22,864 nt of DNA from a virus, in IMG/VR virus record IMGVR_UViG_3300031825_000376, positions 1 through 22,864 of that record. One strand, 5' to 3'. This document shows positions 11,766 to 19,913 of this stretch, one piece after another. The notes beneath the pieces are model-generated. The model ran no database searches, had not been told where the DNA came from, and saw only the letters and a program-made list of their open reading frames with translations. Position 1 is the first letter of the stretch, and every line of letters starts with the position of its first letter. Made by a program: the position numbers and the translations under genes.

Positions 11766-12322
11766 GCTTTCCAACTGGCACGGTCATCGTCGATCTGTCC
11801 GGCGCGGGCGCTCGTGGGCCAAAGGGCTCGCAACTCCTGAAGGGGGCTGGTTCCCCTGCGTCCAGCCTTGGCAACGCCGGGGATTATTATTTCGACACCA
11901 CATCGCGCCAGATCTACGGCCCAAAGGCCGCCGGGGCATGGGGCACGCCAACATCGCTTGTCGAGCCTGAAACGATCATTGTCGCGGATAACATCTCTGA
12001 TGTTCGGGCAGTAGCAGGCAGCATCACTTCGGTCACGGCGGTCGCCGCCGATCTCGCGAACGTCAATTATGTCGGTGCGTCGATCACCAATGTCGGCCTC
12101 GTCGCCGGCTCGATCGCCAATGTGGACACGGTGGCAGGCTTTATCCTGGCGGTCGGGACCGTTGCCGGCTCGATCTCCGACGTCACGGCTGTGGCGACAA
12201 ACATCGACGCGGTCATCGCGGCTGCCGGCGCGACGGCCAATATCGTTGCCGCCCTCGCCAACATCTCCGCCGACATCATCGCGACACAGCAGATGATCGT
12301 CGATGGTCTCGCTTTCGCATGA
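11762..12322 (+). CDS. Repeat fibre/adaptor protein with decapeptide repeats
   Basis: This 186-residue protein starts with a short collagen-like GARGPKG segment, then GNAGDYYFDTTSRQIYGP, a module common at the start of phage fibres that carries the fibre's connecting domain. From about residue 78 it has nine consecutive decapeptides of pattern x-x-V-x-x-V-A-x-x-I, for example TSVTAVAADL, TNVGLVAGSI and ANVDTVAGFI. The repeat equals the one in the larger fibre downstream, so the two probably co-assemble or are products of an internal duplication. It overlaps the upstream gene as ATGA. The C-terminus ends with a short helix, not a receptor domain. Confidence 0.65.
   Translation: MSFPTGTVIVDLSGAGARGPKGSQLLKGAGSPASSLGNAGDYYFDTTSRQIYGPKAAGAWGTPTSLVEPETIIVADNISDVRAVAGSITSVTAVAADLANVNYVGASITNVGLVAGSIANVDTVAGFILAVGTVAGSISDVTAVATNIDAVIAAAGATANIVAALANISADIIATQQMIVDGLAFA
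12024..12270 (+). repeat. 30-bp coding repeat, decapeptide array (small fibre gene)
   Basis: About nine tandem 30-base units encode decapeptides of the pattern x-x-V/I-x-x-V-A-G-x-I/L. Spacing stays exactly ten codons with no insertion, but base identity between units is low, so selection is on the protein. Boundaries are approximate. Confidence 0.6.
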
Positions 12323-12332
12323 GGAACCCATA

Positions 12333-15284
12333 ATGCCCGCCACCCTGGATGATGCGATTGTTGCTCTCGAGAATGCCACTGCCGCGACGACTGCCCTGAC
12401 CGGAGCCGTGAACGTCAAAAAGGCGGTGCTCGACGATGCGGTGGCTCTGGTTACCACCAATCCTGACCTGATCGCGGTCGGGAATGATCTGGCCGGCGCG
12501 AATACGATCGGTACCGTGGCTGGTGGAATCGCGAATGTAGCGACTGTCGCAGGGGCGGTTACGGACATCGGCATCGTCTCCGGGATCACCGGCAGCATCT
12601 CCGCCGTGGCTGGCATCTCCGCTTCGGTGACGGCGGTCGGCTCGGTATCCTCGTCCGTCACGACGGTGGCCCTCATTGCCCCATCGGTGTCGACGGTCGC
12701 TTCGAACGCGGCAACTGTTGCAACCGTCGCTGCCGTTGCCACGGAAATCGCCACTCTCGGGCCGATCGCCGGATCGATCACCGCCGCAGCTGGCAACGCC
12801 ACGAATATCAACGCGGTCGCGGCGAACGCCACGAATATCAACTCCGTCGCTGGTAACGGCACCAATATCAGTGCCGTGGCCGGGGCGGTGACAGCCATTA
12901 CCACGGTTGCGGGAAATCTAACCAATATCAATGCTGTGGCGGCCAACAACGCCAACATCAGCACCGTGGCGGGCATCGGCGCTGCTGTTTCCACCGTTTC
13001 TGGCATCAGCGCTGCCGTCTCTACTGTTTCCGGCATTTCGGCGAACGTGACGACGGTGGCCGGGATAGCGGCCAATGTTACTACGGTGGCGACTAATATC
13101 GGTTCGATCACCGCCGCAGCCGGCCTCCTGGCAGCAAACGCGACGACCGTCATTTCCGCCAGCGTTGTCGATGCCCTGTCGAATGGCGTCATCGGCAATG
13201 GTGCGATCACCGGCGGCTCTGGCGGCACGAACGGGACGTTTCTCGGTTCGCTCACTGGCGGTGCCGGCTCCGGTGCCGCCTTCCAATTCGTCGTCTCCGG
13301 CGGCGCGCTGACCTCGATCATCTGGCTCGCGAAGGGGCGCGGCTACACGAGCGCGCCAACCCTCGTCTTCACCGCATCATCCGGGCTCACCGGCGCCTCG
13401 GCGACCGCAATCATTGGCCCGAACAGCGTCGATGGTCAGTCGGTCAATGTGTCGATGGGCGATGGGCTCGGGTTCAACACCTACACGAACGTTGCCGGTG
13501 CGCTGGCCTTGCAGTCGCAGACCCTTTCGAATGGCGGCGTCGCGCTCGGCCAGAAGATCGCGCTGCTTTCCGCGCCTGGCGCGGTCACGCTCTTGCCTTC
13601 CGCACCGATCGTATCGCTTGACCCGGTGATGGCGGCCATCACCGATGATCGGTACGTGCCGACCAGCATGGCCGCGACGGTGACGCATAACGCCCATCCT
13701 GGCGGCGCGGAGCAATACAACGTCACCAATGGCGGGGTGCTCACCAAGAATTATGCGACCGACAGCGGTTTTGCGGTTCATCGCCTGCAGATGTCTGCGC
13801 ACAACCAGCTTTTTTCGCTTTCCGCAGCGCTTGCGGCCGGCTTGATCAAGGGCAAGTTCCTGATCAAGAGCACCCCGGGAGCGGGTAACCAGAGCATCAC
13901 GGCGGGGCTCTACCCGAGCTTCATGGATGTCTATGCGATCACCGAAGGCGCTTGGACGACGGTCAGCTTCAGCCGCACCACGACGATCAACAACAACGTC
14001 AATATCTGGAACAGCGCCGATGCCTTCCCGCTCGACGTGATCTTCCGCGAAGATGTGCAGATATACCTGGATGGGGAAAGCATCCCGGCGGCCGAGCCTT
14101 CCCGAGTGGGAACTGCAATCCGGCGCACGAGCATCACCAAGGCGGGCGCGATCACGCGCGGCACCGGAAATTCCGTCGTATCGCCCTTCATCGGGCGCAT
14201 CCCCCTTTCCACCCGTGATGACAATGGCGTGACCTTCACGGAAGGCACATGGATTTGCGCGCTTCGGGAGGATGTTGCGCAAGGTGCCAACGCGTGCGGC
14301 GTGCTGTTTGCGCCGCTGTTGGGAGGTCTCACCGGCTATAATGGCAATGGCGTTGTCATCGGCACGCAGGGCAGCAGCCTTGACCTGAATGCGAATGGCC
14401 TACGGCTGACCAGTTATGTCGGCGGCCCGATCACGGGGAAGGGTTGGGTGATCGGGGCTGTCCGGTTCGGCCCAACCGGCCGCTCGCTGCACTTAAACGG
14501 CGTTCAGATCGCAGAAGATACGACCGCGTCGACCCCATTTACGATTCCGTACGCCAATTGGGGAGGCGGGGGATACCTAGACAGCCAGCCGTTCAATGGC
14601 CGGGTGGGTATCCCGCTGATTTACTCGACGGCACTCTCTGACGACGCCCTGACTCAAGCCTGCAAGAACGTGCGCGACAGGCACTTGGTCATGGGCGACA
14701 CGTTCCAAACTTGGAACTTCGTGATCCCCGAGGGCGACAGCATCACGGCGGGCACAACCAGCACCTATGCTTTCAAGGCCCGCGATACCATGGGCCTCAA
14801 GCCATTCTGGCGGATGACGGCCGCCTCCGGGTCGACGCTGGATGCGGCAACGCCGATGACTGGTCGCTTGTCGCTTGTCCTGAAGATGATCCGCGCCGTC
14901 GTAGCTATGGGCGGTCGCCCAATCCTCACGATGATGATTGGCGCGAACGGGCTCCCGACGCAGACCGCGCTGCGGTCCTACTGGTCTCAAGTGCGCGCTG
15001 CCGGGGCCAAGATTTTGGTGCAGCCCCCGACCTATCGCACGGGCGGGACGTTCACGAACTCCCAGGCTGACACATTCCGTGCGATGCTTGTCTCGGAGTT
15101 TGCGCTCGGCAATTTCGATGCTTATTCGGACATCTACACGCTGCCGCTGATCGCCAGTCAGACATTCGCCACCGACGCGCCGGGCGGGGTCCCGAACACG
15201 CTGGACGGCCTGCACTGGACCGATGCTGTCCACACCCTTGTCGCTCCGGTTTACCAAGCCGCCCTGCAGACGTTGATGATCTAA
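12333..15284 (+). CDS. Tail fibre with decapeptide repeats, LamG-like region and SGNH hydrolase tip
   Basis: This is a 983-residue protein; GAGGA (12321-12325) sits seven bases before the chosen ATG. Residues 57-266 are 21 uninterrupted decapeptides such as TNINAVAANA and ANVTTVAGIA. A β-domain follows with GRGYTSAPT near 335, a motif of fibre beads. Around 620-770 a LamG/concanavalin-like region appears, with TWICALREDV, SLHLNGVQIAEDT and GRVGIPLIYSTALSDD. The end (790-983) is an SGNH/GDSL esterase: GDSIT with Ser803, Gly833 in ASGST, GAN with Asn872, and DGLH with Asp958 and His961. All catalytic residues are present, so it may deacetylate or de-esterify surface polysaccharide during adsorption; the substrate is not inferable. 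Confidence 0.82.
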   Translation: MPATLDDAIVALENATAATTALTGAVNVKKAVLDDAVALVTTNPDLIAVGNDLAGANTIGTVAGGIANVATVAGAVTDIGIVSGITGSISAVAGISASVTAVGSVSSSVTTVALIAPSVSTVASNAATVATVAAVATEIATLGPIAGSITAAAGNATNINAVAANATNINSVAGNGTNISAVAGAVTAITTVAGNLTNINAVAANNANISTVAGIGAAVSTVSGISAAVSTVSGISANVTTVAGIAANVTTVATNIGSITAAAGLLAANATTVISASVVDALSNGVIGNGAITGGSGGTNGTFLGSLTGGAGSGAAFQFVVSGGALTSIIWLAKGRGYTSAPTLVFTASSGLTGASATAIIGPNSVDGQSVNVSMGDGLGFNTYTNVAGALALQSQTLSNGGVALGQKIALLSAPGAVTLLPSAPIVSLDPVMAAITDDRYVPTSMAATVTHNAHPGGAEQYNVTNGGVLTKNYATDSGFAVHRLQMSAHNQLFSLSAALAAGLIKGKFLIKSTPGAGNQSITAGLYPSFMDVYAITEGAWTTVSFSRTTTINNNVNIWNSADAFPLDVIFREDVQIYLDGESIPAAEPSRVGTAIRRTSITKAGAITRGTGNSVVSPFIGRIPLSTRDDNGVTFTEGTWICALREDVAQGANACGVLFAPLLGGLTGYNGNGVVIGTQGSSLDLNANGLRLTSYVGGPITGKGWVIGAVRFGPTGRSLHLNGVQIAEDTTASTPFTIPYANWGGGGYLDSQPFNGRVGIPLIYSTALSDDALTQACKNVRDRHLVMGDTFQTWNFVIPEGDSITAGTTSTYAFKARDTMGLKPFWRMTAASGSTLDAATPMTGRLSLVLKMIRAVVAMGGRPILTMMIGANGLPTQTALRSYWSQVRAAGAKILVQPPTYRTGGTFTNSQADTFRAMLVSEFALGNFDAYSDIYTLPLIASQTFATDAPGGVPNTLDGLHWTDAVHTLVAPVYQAALQTLMI
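12501..13130 (+). repeat. 30-bp coding repeat, 21 decapeptide units (large fibre gene)
   Basis: Twenty-one consecutive 30-base units encode residues 57-266 of the large fibre. Consensus is about [ST/A]-N/x-I/V-x-x-V-A-G-x-x. Some neighbours are near-identical (AAVSTVSGIS occurs twice in a row) while others differ at many bases, suggesting both old divergence and recent unit duplication. No unit is disrupted. Confidence 0.75.
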
Positions 15285-15346: not shown

Positions 15347-15952
15347 ATGCAGCAAATCGCTCGATACGGCTGGACTGACCACGCGCCGCACACCGGCGCT
15401 TATCTCCACCGCGCGGTGATCGATATGGTGCGCAGCGCTGCCCCTAGGACGGTTCTGGATGCCGGATGTGGCAATGGTGTGCTGGCATCCAGCCTGGCGG
15501 CCTGTGGGTTCGCGGTGACGGGCATGGACGGAGATGCGGGCGGGATCGAGATCGCCAGTCGTAAGTTCCCGGGCATCCGCTTCAAAGTCGGGAACTTCGC
15601 AGATGCGCCGGCCGAGACGTTCGATTGCGTCGTATCAACCGAGGTCATCGAGCATCTGTATGCCCCGCATGAACTCGTGCGCTACTGCTGGGACGCGCTG
15701 AAGCCCGGCGGGACACTCGTGATCTCGACGCCCTATCATGGCTATCTCAAGAACCTCGTGTTCGGGCTGCTCGGCGCATGGGACCGGCATTTCACGGTCA
15801 GCTGGCACGGTGGCCATATCAAGTTCTGGAGCCGGGCGACGCTGACTGCGGCGCTTGAGCGGCAGGGCTTCAGGGTAACAAAATTCGCAGGCGTCGGCCG
15901 ATTGCCCTGGCTCTGGAAGAGCATGGTTCTGGCAGCGGTAAAAAGCGACTGA
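15347..15952 (+). CDS. Class I SAM-dependent methyltransferase
   Basis: This 201-residue protein has the full Rossmann methyltransferase core. Motif I is VLDAGCGNGVLASSL (about 36-50), then an acidic GMDGD (59-63), FDCVVSTEVIEHLYAPHELVR (89-109) and LKPGGTLVISTPYHGYLKNL. The final GHIKFWSRATL and GVGRLPWLWKSMVLAA are typical of a widespread UbiG-like bacterial family often found beside glycan or lipid genes. The substrate cannot be read. It lies between the fibre genes and small accessory genes, a place where phages carry cargo. It could alter host envelope or metabolites, or modify the phage's own proteins. The fold is firm; the role is speculative. Confidence 0.8.
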   Translation: MQQIARYGWTDHAPHTGAYLHRAVIDMVRSAAPRTVLDAGCGNGVLASSLAACGFAVTGMDGDAGGIEIASRKFPGIRFKVGNFADAPAETFDCVVSTEVIEHLYAPHELVRYCWDALKPGGTLVISTPYHGYLKNLVFGLLGAWDRHFTVSWHGGHIKFWSRATLTAALERQGFRVTKFAGVGRLPWLWKSMVLAAVKSD

Positions 15953-18130: not shown

Positions 18131-18178
18131 ATGGATGCCAGAGCCATTCGTCCCCGCGCGCCCGGTGCGGCGCGATGA
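18131..18178 (+). CDS. 15-codon ORF overlapping the endolysin start (leader candidate)
   Basis: GGAGAA (18120-18125) stands five bases before ATG 18131, whose frame reads MDARAIRPRAPGAAR and stops at TGA 18176-18178. That stop overlaps the endolysin ATG (18175) as ATGA. The endolysin ATG itself has no evident ribosome site. The mini-ORF may therefore act by translational coupling, not by making a functional peptide. It could be chance. Confidence 0.35.
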   Translation: MDARAIRPRAPGAAR

Positions 18179-18783
18179 ACAGCAACGCCCGCTTCTTCGA
18201 TGCGGTTCGCAAGGGGCTGCTCGGCCCGACGCTGACCCCGAGCGAGGTCACCGGCTGTTCCGCGATCCTCGACGCCATGGCGGGCGCCCCGCTGTCGTGG
18301 TGTGCCTACGCGCTGGCGACCGCCTACAAGGAGACGGCGCACACCATGCAGCCGATCGAGGAGATGGGCGGCAACGCCTATTTCTTCCGGCGCTACGACC
18401 CGCAGGGGCAGCGCCCTGATATCGCGCGCCAGCTCGGCAACACGCAGCCCGGCGACGGCGTGAAGTTCCATGGCCGCGGTTACGTCCAGATCACCGGCCG
18501 CAAGAATTACACCAAGGCGTTCGCGAAGATCGGCGTCGACATCGTGTCCCATCCCGAGCTGGCGCTCGGCGATGACGTCGCGGCCAAGATCATGCGCCGT
18601 GGGATGCAGGAAGGCTGGTTCACCGGCAAGAGCTTCGCGAGCTATCTGCCCGGCAGCGGGCCGGCGACGGTCGAGGCGTACACGCAGGCCCGGCGCATCA
18701 TCAATGGCACGGACGCGGCTGGAGAAATCGCCGGATACGCGATGCAATTCCAGGTCGCGCTTCAGGCGGGAGGTTGGGCATGA
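18175..18783 (+). CDS. Endolysin, glycoside hydrolase family 19 (chitinase-like)
   Basis: This 202-residue protein has the GH19 lysozyme/chitinase pattern. LSWCAYALATAYKETAHTM contains the putative catalytic acid Glu53. Then come QPIEEMGG (59-66) and the signature HGRGYVQITGRKNY (99-112), followed by HPELALGDDVAAKIM and GWFTGKS. In phages this domain cleaves peptidoglycan at the end of the lytic cycle. No signal peptide is visible, so a holin should release it. ATG 18175 is used; it overlaps a 15-codon upstream ORF. It overlaps the downstream membrane protein by ATGA, which supports a lysis operon. Confidence 0.85.
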   Translation: MNSNARFFDAVRKGLLGPTLTPSEVTGCSAILDAMAGAPLSWCAYALATAYKETAHTMQPIEEMGGNAYFFRRYDPQGQRPDIARQLGNTQPGDGVKFHGRGYVQITGRKNYTKAFAKIGVDIVSHPELALGDDVAAKIMRRGMQEGWFTGKSFASYLPGSGPATVEAYTQARRIINGTDAAGEIAGYAMQFQVALQAGGWA

Positions 18784-19043
18784 ACACCGAAGCCCGCGAC
18801 TGGCCCCGCCTCGTCTTCGCTGCCGCTGTCGTCGTCTATTTCGGCTACGCGCTCGGCTTCCACTGGACGAACGGGATCGAGGAAACGCTGAAGAACATCA
18901 CCATGCTCGTCGTGGGCTATTTCTTCGGGTCGTCGAAGGGATCGAGCGACAAGGACAAGCTGCTCGCGGATTCGCCCACCGGGACGCCGGCTGATCCGGT
19001 GAGCGTGACGCCGGCACCTGATGCAACGGAGACGACACAATGA
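18780..19043 (+). CDS. Small membrane protein, holin candidate
   Basis: This 87-residue protein has two hydrophobic segments, about 11-28 (RLVFAAAVVVYFGYALGF) and 38-52 (KNITMLVVGYFFGSS), and a hydrophilic, acidic tail (SDKDKLLADSP, then DATETTQ). Length, topology and position between the endolysin and the spanins fit a small phage holin; the segment VVGYFFGSSKGS recurs in small alphaproteobacterial phage membrane proteins. No experiment or family name is claimed. ATG 18780 overlaps the endolysin stop as ATGA, and its own stop overlaps the i-spanin ATG in the same manner. Confidence 0.6.
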   Translation: MNTEARDWPRLVFAAAVVVYFGYALGFHWTNGIEETLKNITMLVVGYFFGSSKGSSDKDKLLADSPTGTPADPVSVTPAPDATETTQ

Positions 19044-19513
19044 CCCTCCTCGCAATCCGCCTCCTCCTCGGCGGCTGGCTCAAATCCGCGCTCGCCTTCG
19101 CCCGCACGATCCCGCCGAAGGTCTGGTATGCGCTGGCTATCATCGCGGCGGTGCTGCTGCTCTGGCACATCCACACCGGGTGGGAGAAGCGTGCGCATGA
19201 CATCGCCTATGCGGCGGGGGTTGCGGCCGAGAAGGTCAACACCGATCGCGCCTTAGCCGCCAACGCGATTCAGCGGACATCGATCGCCGATCTGGAAGCT
19301 ATCATCCGCGCCAAGAATGCGGAGAGCGATGCCCGCGCCCGCGCGCTGGCCGACAGCAAGGTCCAGGACGCGACGGATGTCAGCAAGGCAGACGCGGCGC
19401 AGAAGGCTGATGCGAACCGCCGGGGCACGCTGGAGGGCATCCGCGATGGTGCGGCGCTGAAACCGGCCTGCAAGGTGCCCGATGCCCTGCTGGCGTCGCT
19501 GGAGGGGTTGTGA
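19040..19513 (+). CDS. i-spanin (Rz-like)
   Basis: This 157-residue protein has one N-terminal membrane segment at about 29-45 (WYALAIIAAVLLLWHIHTG), then a long Ala/charged helical periplasmic part with coil character (VAAEKVNTDRALAANAIQRTSIADLEAIIRAKNAESDARARALADSK), ending near ALKPACKVPDALLASLEGL. This is the layout of an inner-membrane spanin subunit. It overlaps the holin candidate as ATGA. A small lipoprotein follows, as expected for the o-spanin, though 121 bases separate the two genes instead of the usual nesting. Its stop lies inside the 5' strand of the predicted structured RNA. Confidence 0.75.
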   Translation: MTLLAIRLLLGGWLKSALAFARTIPPKVWYALAIIAAVLLLWHIHTGWEKRAHDIAYAAGVAAEKVNTDRALAANAIQRTSIADLEAIIRAKNAESDARARALADSKVQDATDVSKADAAQKADANRRGTLEGIRDGAALKPACKVPDALLASLEGL

Positions 19514-19600
19514 TGCTGCGGCGGCCTCCCATCCTCACGGGTAGGGACAACTGCGATCTGGTGGGTATCGCAAGGGCCGTATGTTCCACCGCAGCATCAC
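19510..19600 (+). ncRNA. Predicted three-way-junction RNA between i-spanin and o-spanin genes
   Basis: The + strand can fold into four helices. P1 is a perfect 12-bp stem, 19510-19521 with 19589-19600 (GTGATGCTGCGG / CCGCAGCATCAC). P2, 5 bp, is 19522-19526 with 19575-19579. P3, 8 bp, is 19527-19534 with 19539-19547, with A19543 bulged and tetraloop TCAC. P4, 6 bp, is 19552-19557 with 19567-19572, with a nine-base loop. Linkers are 0, 4 and 2 bases; a nine-base bulge 19580-19588 separates P2 from P1 and contains an in-frame ATG (19581) of the o-spanin with AAGGG just upstream. No T-run follows, so it is not a simple terminator. Family unknown to me. Confidence 0.5.
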
Positions 19601-19634
19601 TGACGCTCATCCTGTGGCGGAAGGGAACTCTACC

Positions 19635-19913
19635 ATGAAATACCTCGGAATCGCAACCCTCGTGCTCCTGTCCGGATGCGCGACCGACAGCGCACCACCA
19701 CCCGCCGTCGAGGTGCATACCGTCACCCGCACGGTCGAGGTGCAGCGCCCGTGTCAGGCGACGATTCCCCAACGCCCTGCGCCGCTCGCCAAGCTGCCGA
19801 CCGATGGCGTCGCGCTCGCCGCCGAGCTCGCGCTCAAGCTGGCGGAATATTCCGGGCCCGGCGGTTTTGCCGACCGGGCGATGGCGGCGCTGAAGACGTG
19901 CACCAAGCCATGA
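19635..19913 (+). CDS. o-spanin candidate lipoprotein (Rz1-like)
   Basis: This 92-residue protein begins MKYLGIATLVLLSGC, a lipoprotein signal with lipobox L-L-S-G-C (Cys15). It continues with a Pro/Thr/Val-rich segment (APPPAVEVHTVTRTVEV, then TIPQRPAPLAKLP), as expected for an outer-membrane spanin. AAGGGA (19621-19626) lies eight bases before ATG 19635. An in-frame ATG at 19581, with AAGGG 19572-19576, would add 18 residues (MFHRSITDAHPVAEGNST) before the signal; I prefer 19635 because it places the signal at the N-terminus. The last 80 bases overlap, on the other strand, the open end of the minus-strand gene. Confidence 0.7.
   Translation: MKYLGIATLVLLSGCATDSAPPPAVEVHTVTRTVEVQRPCQATIPQRPAPLAKLPTDGVALAAELALKLAEYSGPGGFADRAMAALKTCTKP

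Follow-up and report, generated by a model that had tools for sequence, protein, structure and literature searches.

The stretch of DNA analysed here, called the window, is a 22,864-bp virus record from IMG/VR. Its + strand carries a putative tail-fibre ORF of 993 aa that includes an extended series of short V/A/I/T-rich repeats (12303–15284), a frame with what may be a class I SAM-methyltransferase-like motif, LDAGCGNG, located between the tail-fibre and lysis genes (15347–15952), an endolysin of the family 19 chitinase type (18175–18783; phrog_181, PF00182) and genes for an i-spanin and an o-spanin lipoprotein (Table 1). The two spanin genes are separated by 121 nt, since the i-spanin stop codon ends at 19513 and the o-spanin ATG lies at 19635, in agreement with an earlier reading made from the sequence alone. 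That reading regarded the gap itself as unusual, but 118 of 528 two-component spanin systems have been classed as ‘separated’ (PMC6139136). In two loci containing relatives of the o-spanin retrieved by protein search (L002 and L003), the spanin genes overlap as ATGA and the element described below is missing; in other lysis modules examined, the spanins are nested or abutting and the element is likewise absent. The spanin proteins are too diverged to help directly, and a scan with the i-spanin for homologues usable in covariation analysis gave no relative.

The 91-nt segment 19510–19600 folds into a three-way junction of -46.4 kcal/mol, compared with -32.0 ± 3.5 kcal/mol for dinucleotide-shuffled sequences, a control proposed in the sequence-only reading (z = -4.10, with 0/200 shuffles equally good). 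The z value is -3.0 when 30–40 nt of flanking sequence are added, and it ranges from -1.3 to -5.1 among individual copies of the family. The segment is closed, as had been described, by a perfect 12-bp stem (P1, exact pairing of 19510–19521 with 19589–19600), and its 5′ strand was correctly said to start inside the i-spanin stop codon. Two hairpins are indeed present, but the sizes first attributed to them (8 bp with a bulge, and 6 bp) are corrected to 7 bp with one bulge for P2 and 8 bp (6 + 2) with one bulged U for P3. The inner helix, announced as 5 bp, is a single-sequence prediction for the window (5–6 bp), whereas in the predicted folds of L087 and L076 this place is taken by an extension of P1.

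Table 1. Features of the spanin interval in the window (all on the + strand; L numbers designate IMG/VR loci)
Feature	Position	Strand	Remarks
i-spanin gene	19040..19513	+	51% identity to the i-spanin of L076
Structured RNA element, three-way junction, whole	19510..19600	+	fold z -4.1; matched by covariance models R1/R2
P1 5′ strand GTGATGCTGCGG	19510..19521	+	covarying stem
i-spanin stop codon	19511..19513	+	overlaps ATG 19513-19515 as TGATG; position matched in most homologues
Bridging reading frame, 41 codons	19513..19638	+	begins at TGATG and crosses the element; stop codon overlapping the o-spanin ATG; groups of copies share no conserved peptide
P2 hairpin, UCCC/GGGA and inner AUCC-UCAC-GGGU	19527..19547	+	helix kept via compensatory changes (hand-aligned)
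Junction CAAC	19548..19551	+	CAGC in L076 and L116/L140; CGC in L142
P3 hairpin UGCGAU...AUCGCA	19552..19572	+	100% paired; outer three pairs covary
Invariant 15-nt core GATCTGGTGGGTATC	19555..19569	+	identical in 12/12 copies
Junction J3/1, starting with AGGG	19573..19585	+	AGGG/AGAGG/AAGGU-like in most copies
P1 3′ strand CCGCAGCATCAC	19589..19600	+	covarying stem
Right flank, Shine–Dalgarno-like AAGGGA and o-spanin ATG (19635)	19621..19637	+	
o-spanin lipoprotein gene	19635..19913	+	67% identity to the o-spanin of L076; weak PF23793 Rz1-like match below cut-off

IMG/VR phage contigs yielded eleven additional copies, nine of them distinct, which with the window makes 12 copies in all, ten of them distinct. 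The first search specified only the closing stem, as GATGCTGCGG followed after 52–78 nt by CCGCAGCATC, and matched five IMG/VR loci; three of them (L074, L075 and L076) also hold GATCTGGTGGGTATC at the position of P3, a sequence that was no part of the search pattern. Patterns covering the P3 region then added L087, followed by L100, L104, L110, L116, L133, L140 and L142. A covariance-model search, proposed in the earlier reading, recognises the other copies: model R1, trained on the window, L087, L074 and L075, scores the eight untrained copies at 39–74 bits with E values of 3e-6 or better. In a control on 56 newly fetched loci containing the exact 15-mer, seven fell below an E value of 0.01 with R1 and the next, L126, reached only 0.045; in the remaining loci of this kind the core nearly always lies inside longer stop-free frames. 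Each record contains one good match to the element.

Several candidates were rejected. Relaxing the core pattern at two positions yielded no new member, and two loci that it matched (L171 and L177) scored weakly and were taken as chance matches, as were L077 and L078, where the P1 pattern is matched and the core is absent. The fold is missing from L084–L086 and L088–L092, which match a core-plus-P1 pattern, and from L126 and L139, in which the core lies within a stop-free frame; matches in E. coli phages have nothing but the core in common with the family. One further weak match, L204, was seen in another family. A match in Rfam, for which the sequence-only reading had proposed a test, was not found: Rfam 15 gives no match at the gathering cut-off in the window or in nine homologous loci, and the sub-threshold matches are at chance level. 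The element belongs to a structured RNA family that is apparently unrecorded.

All copies are built alike: P1 closes the element, P2 is a variable hairpin, the junction reads CAAC or CAGC, or in a single copy CGC, and P3 is a second hairpin. In all of them P3 carries the invariant 15-nt core GAUCUGGUGGGUAUC, an invariance to be read with the mode of retrieval in mind, several copies having been obtained with the 15-mer itself and L074, L075 and L076 without it. Compensatory changes, which the sequence-only reading had suggested seeking in homologues, are found in P1, P3 and P2. In an alignment fitted to the structure with R1, 96.6% of the P1 and P3 cells are paired, against 77.7 ± 1.8% in shuffled versions, and both sides have changed in 12 of the 18 pairs, against 4.5 after shuffling (0/500 shuffles as good, and at most 5 pairs in slid versions). 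The corresponding covariation score is 0.458, against 0.107 for shuffled and at most 0.083 for slid versions. Two caveats on these counts are the fitting of the alignment to the structure and the small number of distinct copies, ten. The output of RNAalifold on a first alignment, in which P3 was misplaced, was set aside. In hand-aligned P2 sequences, 4–5 pairs are kept through the changes CUCCG/CGGAG, UUCCG/CGGAA and CUCUG/CAGAG. It is highly probable that the family represents a real covarying structure.

The orientation of this structure is indicated by wobble pairs, namely an invariant U·G pair in P3 and U·G pairs in the outer part of P3 in L074, L100 and L142. These would be A·C mismatches on the opposite strand, so the strand that folds must be that from which transcription also yields the message of the upstream gene. 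Furthermore, the core is identical even at third positions that are four-fold degenerate, and its reading frame differs between copies, which indicates that selection does not act on a protein. A frame conserved at the protein level, regarded from the outset as evidence against a structured RNA, was not found, nor was a conserved peptide in one frame in a small-gene test (DLVGI versus IWWVS). The many invariant positions that are unpaired or non-canonical (the core, CAAC and AGGG) within a compact three-way junction might recall a self-cleaving ribozyme or a ligand-binding RNA whose active site is the P3 core. However, the family has no likeness to Rfam ribozymes or riboswitches, no catalytic motif was recognised and no gene occurs consistently downstream for a switch to control, making such a function quite improbable.

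The genomic contexts of the copies are diverse. The element lies at an i-spanin/o-spanin junction in the window and in L076, between a holin-like ORF and an i-spanin-like ORF in L087, between the genes for tail-tube A and tail-tube B in L074, L075, L110 and L104, and between a large portal-like ORF and a scaffold-like ORF in L100 (names given from size and order). In L116, L140 and L133 it is located between convergent genes, with nothing co-directional downstream. The sequence-only reading had envisaged a regulatory leader of the o-spanin, in keeping with the position in the window and L076. However, the other copies lie at unrelated junctions, where they precede other genes or none, and the convergent copies already largely refute the proposal, which is now extremely improbable. 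The ATG at 19581, presented in that reading as the start of an extended o-spanin, exists and is in the o-spanin frame, but there is no ATG at this position in L087 and L076, so the extended protein is unsupported. Such an N-terminal extension, stop-codon readthrough and translational bypassing were all rejected, since the frames downstream give them no support when the copies are compared. The right flank of the window is similar to that of L087 as far as the ATG of L087, despite differing downstream genes.

A more constant feature is the docking of the element on a stop codon. The foot of P1 coincides with a TGATG stop in the window, L087, L076, L074, L075, L110, L116 and L140, and with a TAG stop in L100. 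There are three exceptions: in L104 the distance from stop to core is ~90 nt instead of ~44 nt, L133 fits docking only if a short upstream ORF is real, and in L142 no gene can be clearly recognised upstream. On the - strand of L104, upstream of 5101, ~80 extra nt separate the tail-tube A stop (TGATGCTGGG) from P1, as if an insertion had split the foot. In every stop-docked copy, the frame starting at TGATG (GTG in L100) is open through the element for 26–42 codons, an openness expected by chance in 0.27–0.57 of shuffles for each copy, with copies that are not independent. At most co-directional junctions this bridging frame ends at, or a few nt from, the following ATG. Such an arrangement suggests, without proving it, that translation of the operon is maintained.

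Docking could also denote a cis-acting element of the stop codon. A terminating ribosome would have to melt P1, and the element would thereby stall ribosomes, set reinitiation at TGATG or protect the 3′ end of the upstream mRNA. The location of P1 at or a few nt from the upstream stop in the nine docked copies is consistent with this role, as is the bridging frame open in all of them; in addition, REPs located <16 nt from a stop lower translation (PMC12306157). However, there is no relationship among the genes that precede it (i-spanin, holin-like, tail-tube A, portal-like and an early gene), each record has one copy, and a close relative is without the element after the same gene, so that a role in cis is regarded as doubtful. 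REP/BIME palindromic elements of E. coli, as analysed in the RepRanger study (PMC12306157), likewise place a stem directly 3′ of stop codons, but they are short hairpins present many times per chromosome, whereas the phage element is a three-way junction with a 15-nt core and one copy per record. Many dispersed copies in one genome, as in REP/BIME families, were not seen in any of the 385 + 348 sampled genomes. The former are alphaproteobacterial genomes, a sample in which the element was not found (the filters of one screen being strict); the latter are a sample of Caulobacteraceae genomes, with the same outcome. Chromosomal pattern matches had no fold on reading, and their frequency was about that of a reversed-pattern control.

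Comparison of related phages makes it very likely that the element occupies different sites in close relatives. The tail-tube A protein of L140 is 97% identical to that of L074. In L074 the element sits between tail-tube A and B, whereas in L140 these genes overlap as TAGTG without any element and the element is found elsewhere in the contig. In turn, the convergent arrangement at which L140 and L116 carry the element is present in the L074 contig, but without the element. In Sinorhizobium phage phiM5 and in a Microcystis phage, related genes for tail-tube A share 4 nt with the gene that follows. Neither a target-site duplication nor a recombinase was identified, so movement may be by rare capture and not by active transposition.

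Such displacements, together with a left boundary between TGAT and G in most copies, would also be expected from a mobile DNA element (MITE-like or IS200/IS605-like) that acts as a folded DNA single strand and inserts behind TGAT, in which case the RNA fold would be incidental; G·T pairs restricted to one strand fit the folding of that DNA strand as well. However, no Y1 transposase (PF01797) is present in the 12 records, most of which are possibly fragments, with a transposase acting from elsewhere being possible; each record has a single copy and the sampled bacterial genomes contain no repeat. The long-range closing stem is also unlike the separate end hairpins of IS200/IS605, and a mobile DNA element is considered unlikely. 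Integron attC sites and IS200-IS605 ends are imperfect palindromes adjoining stop codons or short target sequences. The phage element resembles them in this respect, but differs by its three-way junction and by the lack of a Y1 transposase in its records.

The explanation judged best, with for and against about evenly balanced, is a relocatable phage RNA cassette that would act as RNA in trans. A phage-borne cassette of ~90 nt, composed of P1, a variable P2 and P3 with its invariant core, would change position between phage genomes, its P1 foot docking on a stop codon, typically TGATG, leaving the gene before it undamaged. Where the following gene runs in the same direction, the TGATG frame would usually end near its start, and operon translation could continue. 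The RNA would be made from whichever operon hosts the cassette, the P3 core may bind a single conserved partner, be it a protein, an RNA or the tertiary fold of the element itself, and any benefit would be exerted in trans, since neighbours, and even the presence of a downstream gene, do not matter. This independence from neighbours, with the convergent copies and the single copy per record, argues against a leader and favours an RNA working in trans or for itself; the ‘phage small RNA’ listed earlier as an alternative is one of the open readings. Against the cassette, fixed docking on stop codons would also fit an element that acts in cis on termination or on the decay of the mRNA. A more specific version, in which a mobile RNA cassette landing on stops leaves both neighbours expressed via the bridging frame and acts in trans through the P3 core, for example in anti-defence or host takeover, is doubtful.

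Mobile regulatory cassettes, described by Arbiol et al. 2010, reportedly occur in T4-type phages as small intergenic stem-loops at different gene junctions, and are said to carry early promoters and to occur several times per genome. The present element gives no indication of a promoter role, has one copy and possesses a conserved RNA core. Structured RNA candidates from comparative genomics likewise have a covarying fold of unknown function (e.g. PMC2864571, PMC8040213). Neither docking on stop codons nor change of position between relatives is a known feature of such candidates. If the cassette reading is correct, a compact RNA is exchanged among phages as a self-contained cassette, whatever the order of the genes, the docking rule makes insertion into tightly packed operons harmless, and the invariant core offers a direct bait for the partner of the RNA.

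A partial relative of the element is found in Brevundimonas phage Bajun, a 207-kb phage (ON529858, 102412-102511; L093:2497-2596), where it is unannotated and precedes the portal gene. This copy retains the P2 region as well as CAACTGC...GCAAGGGC, P2 and the junctions being near-identical over 35 nt, and P3 is replaced by a different, larger helix.
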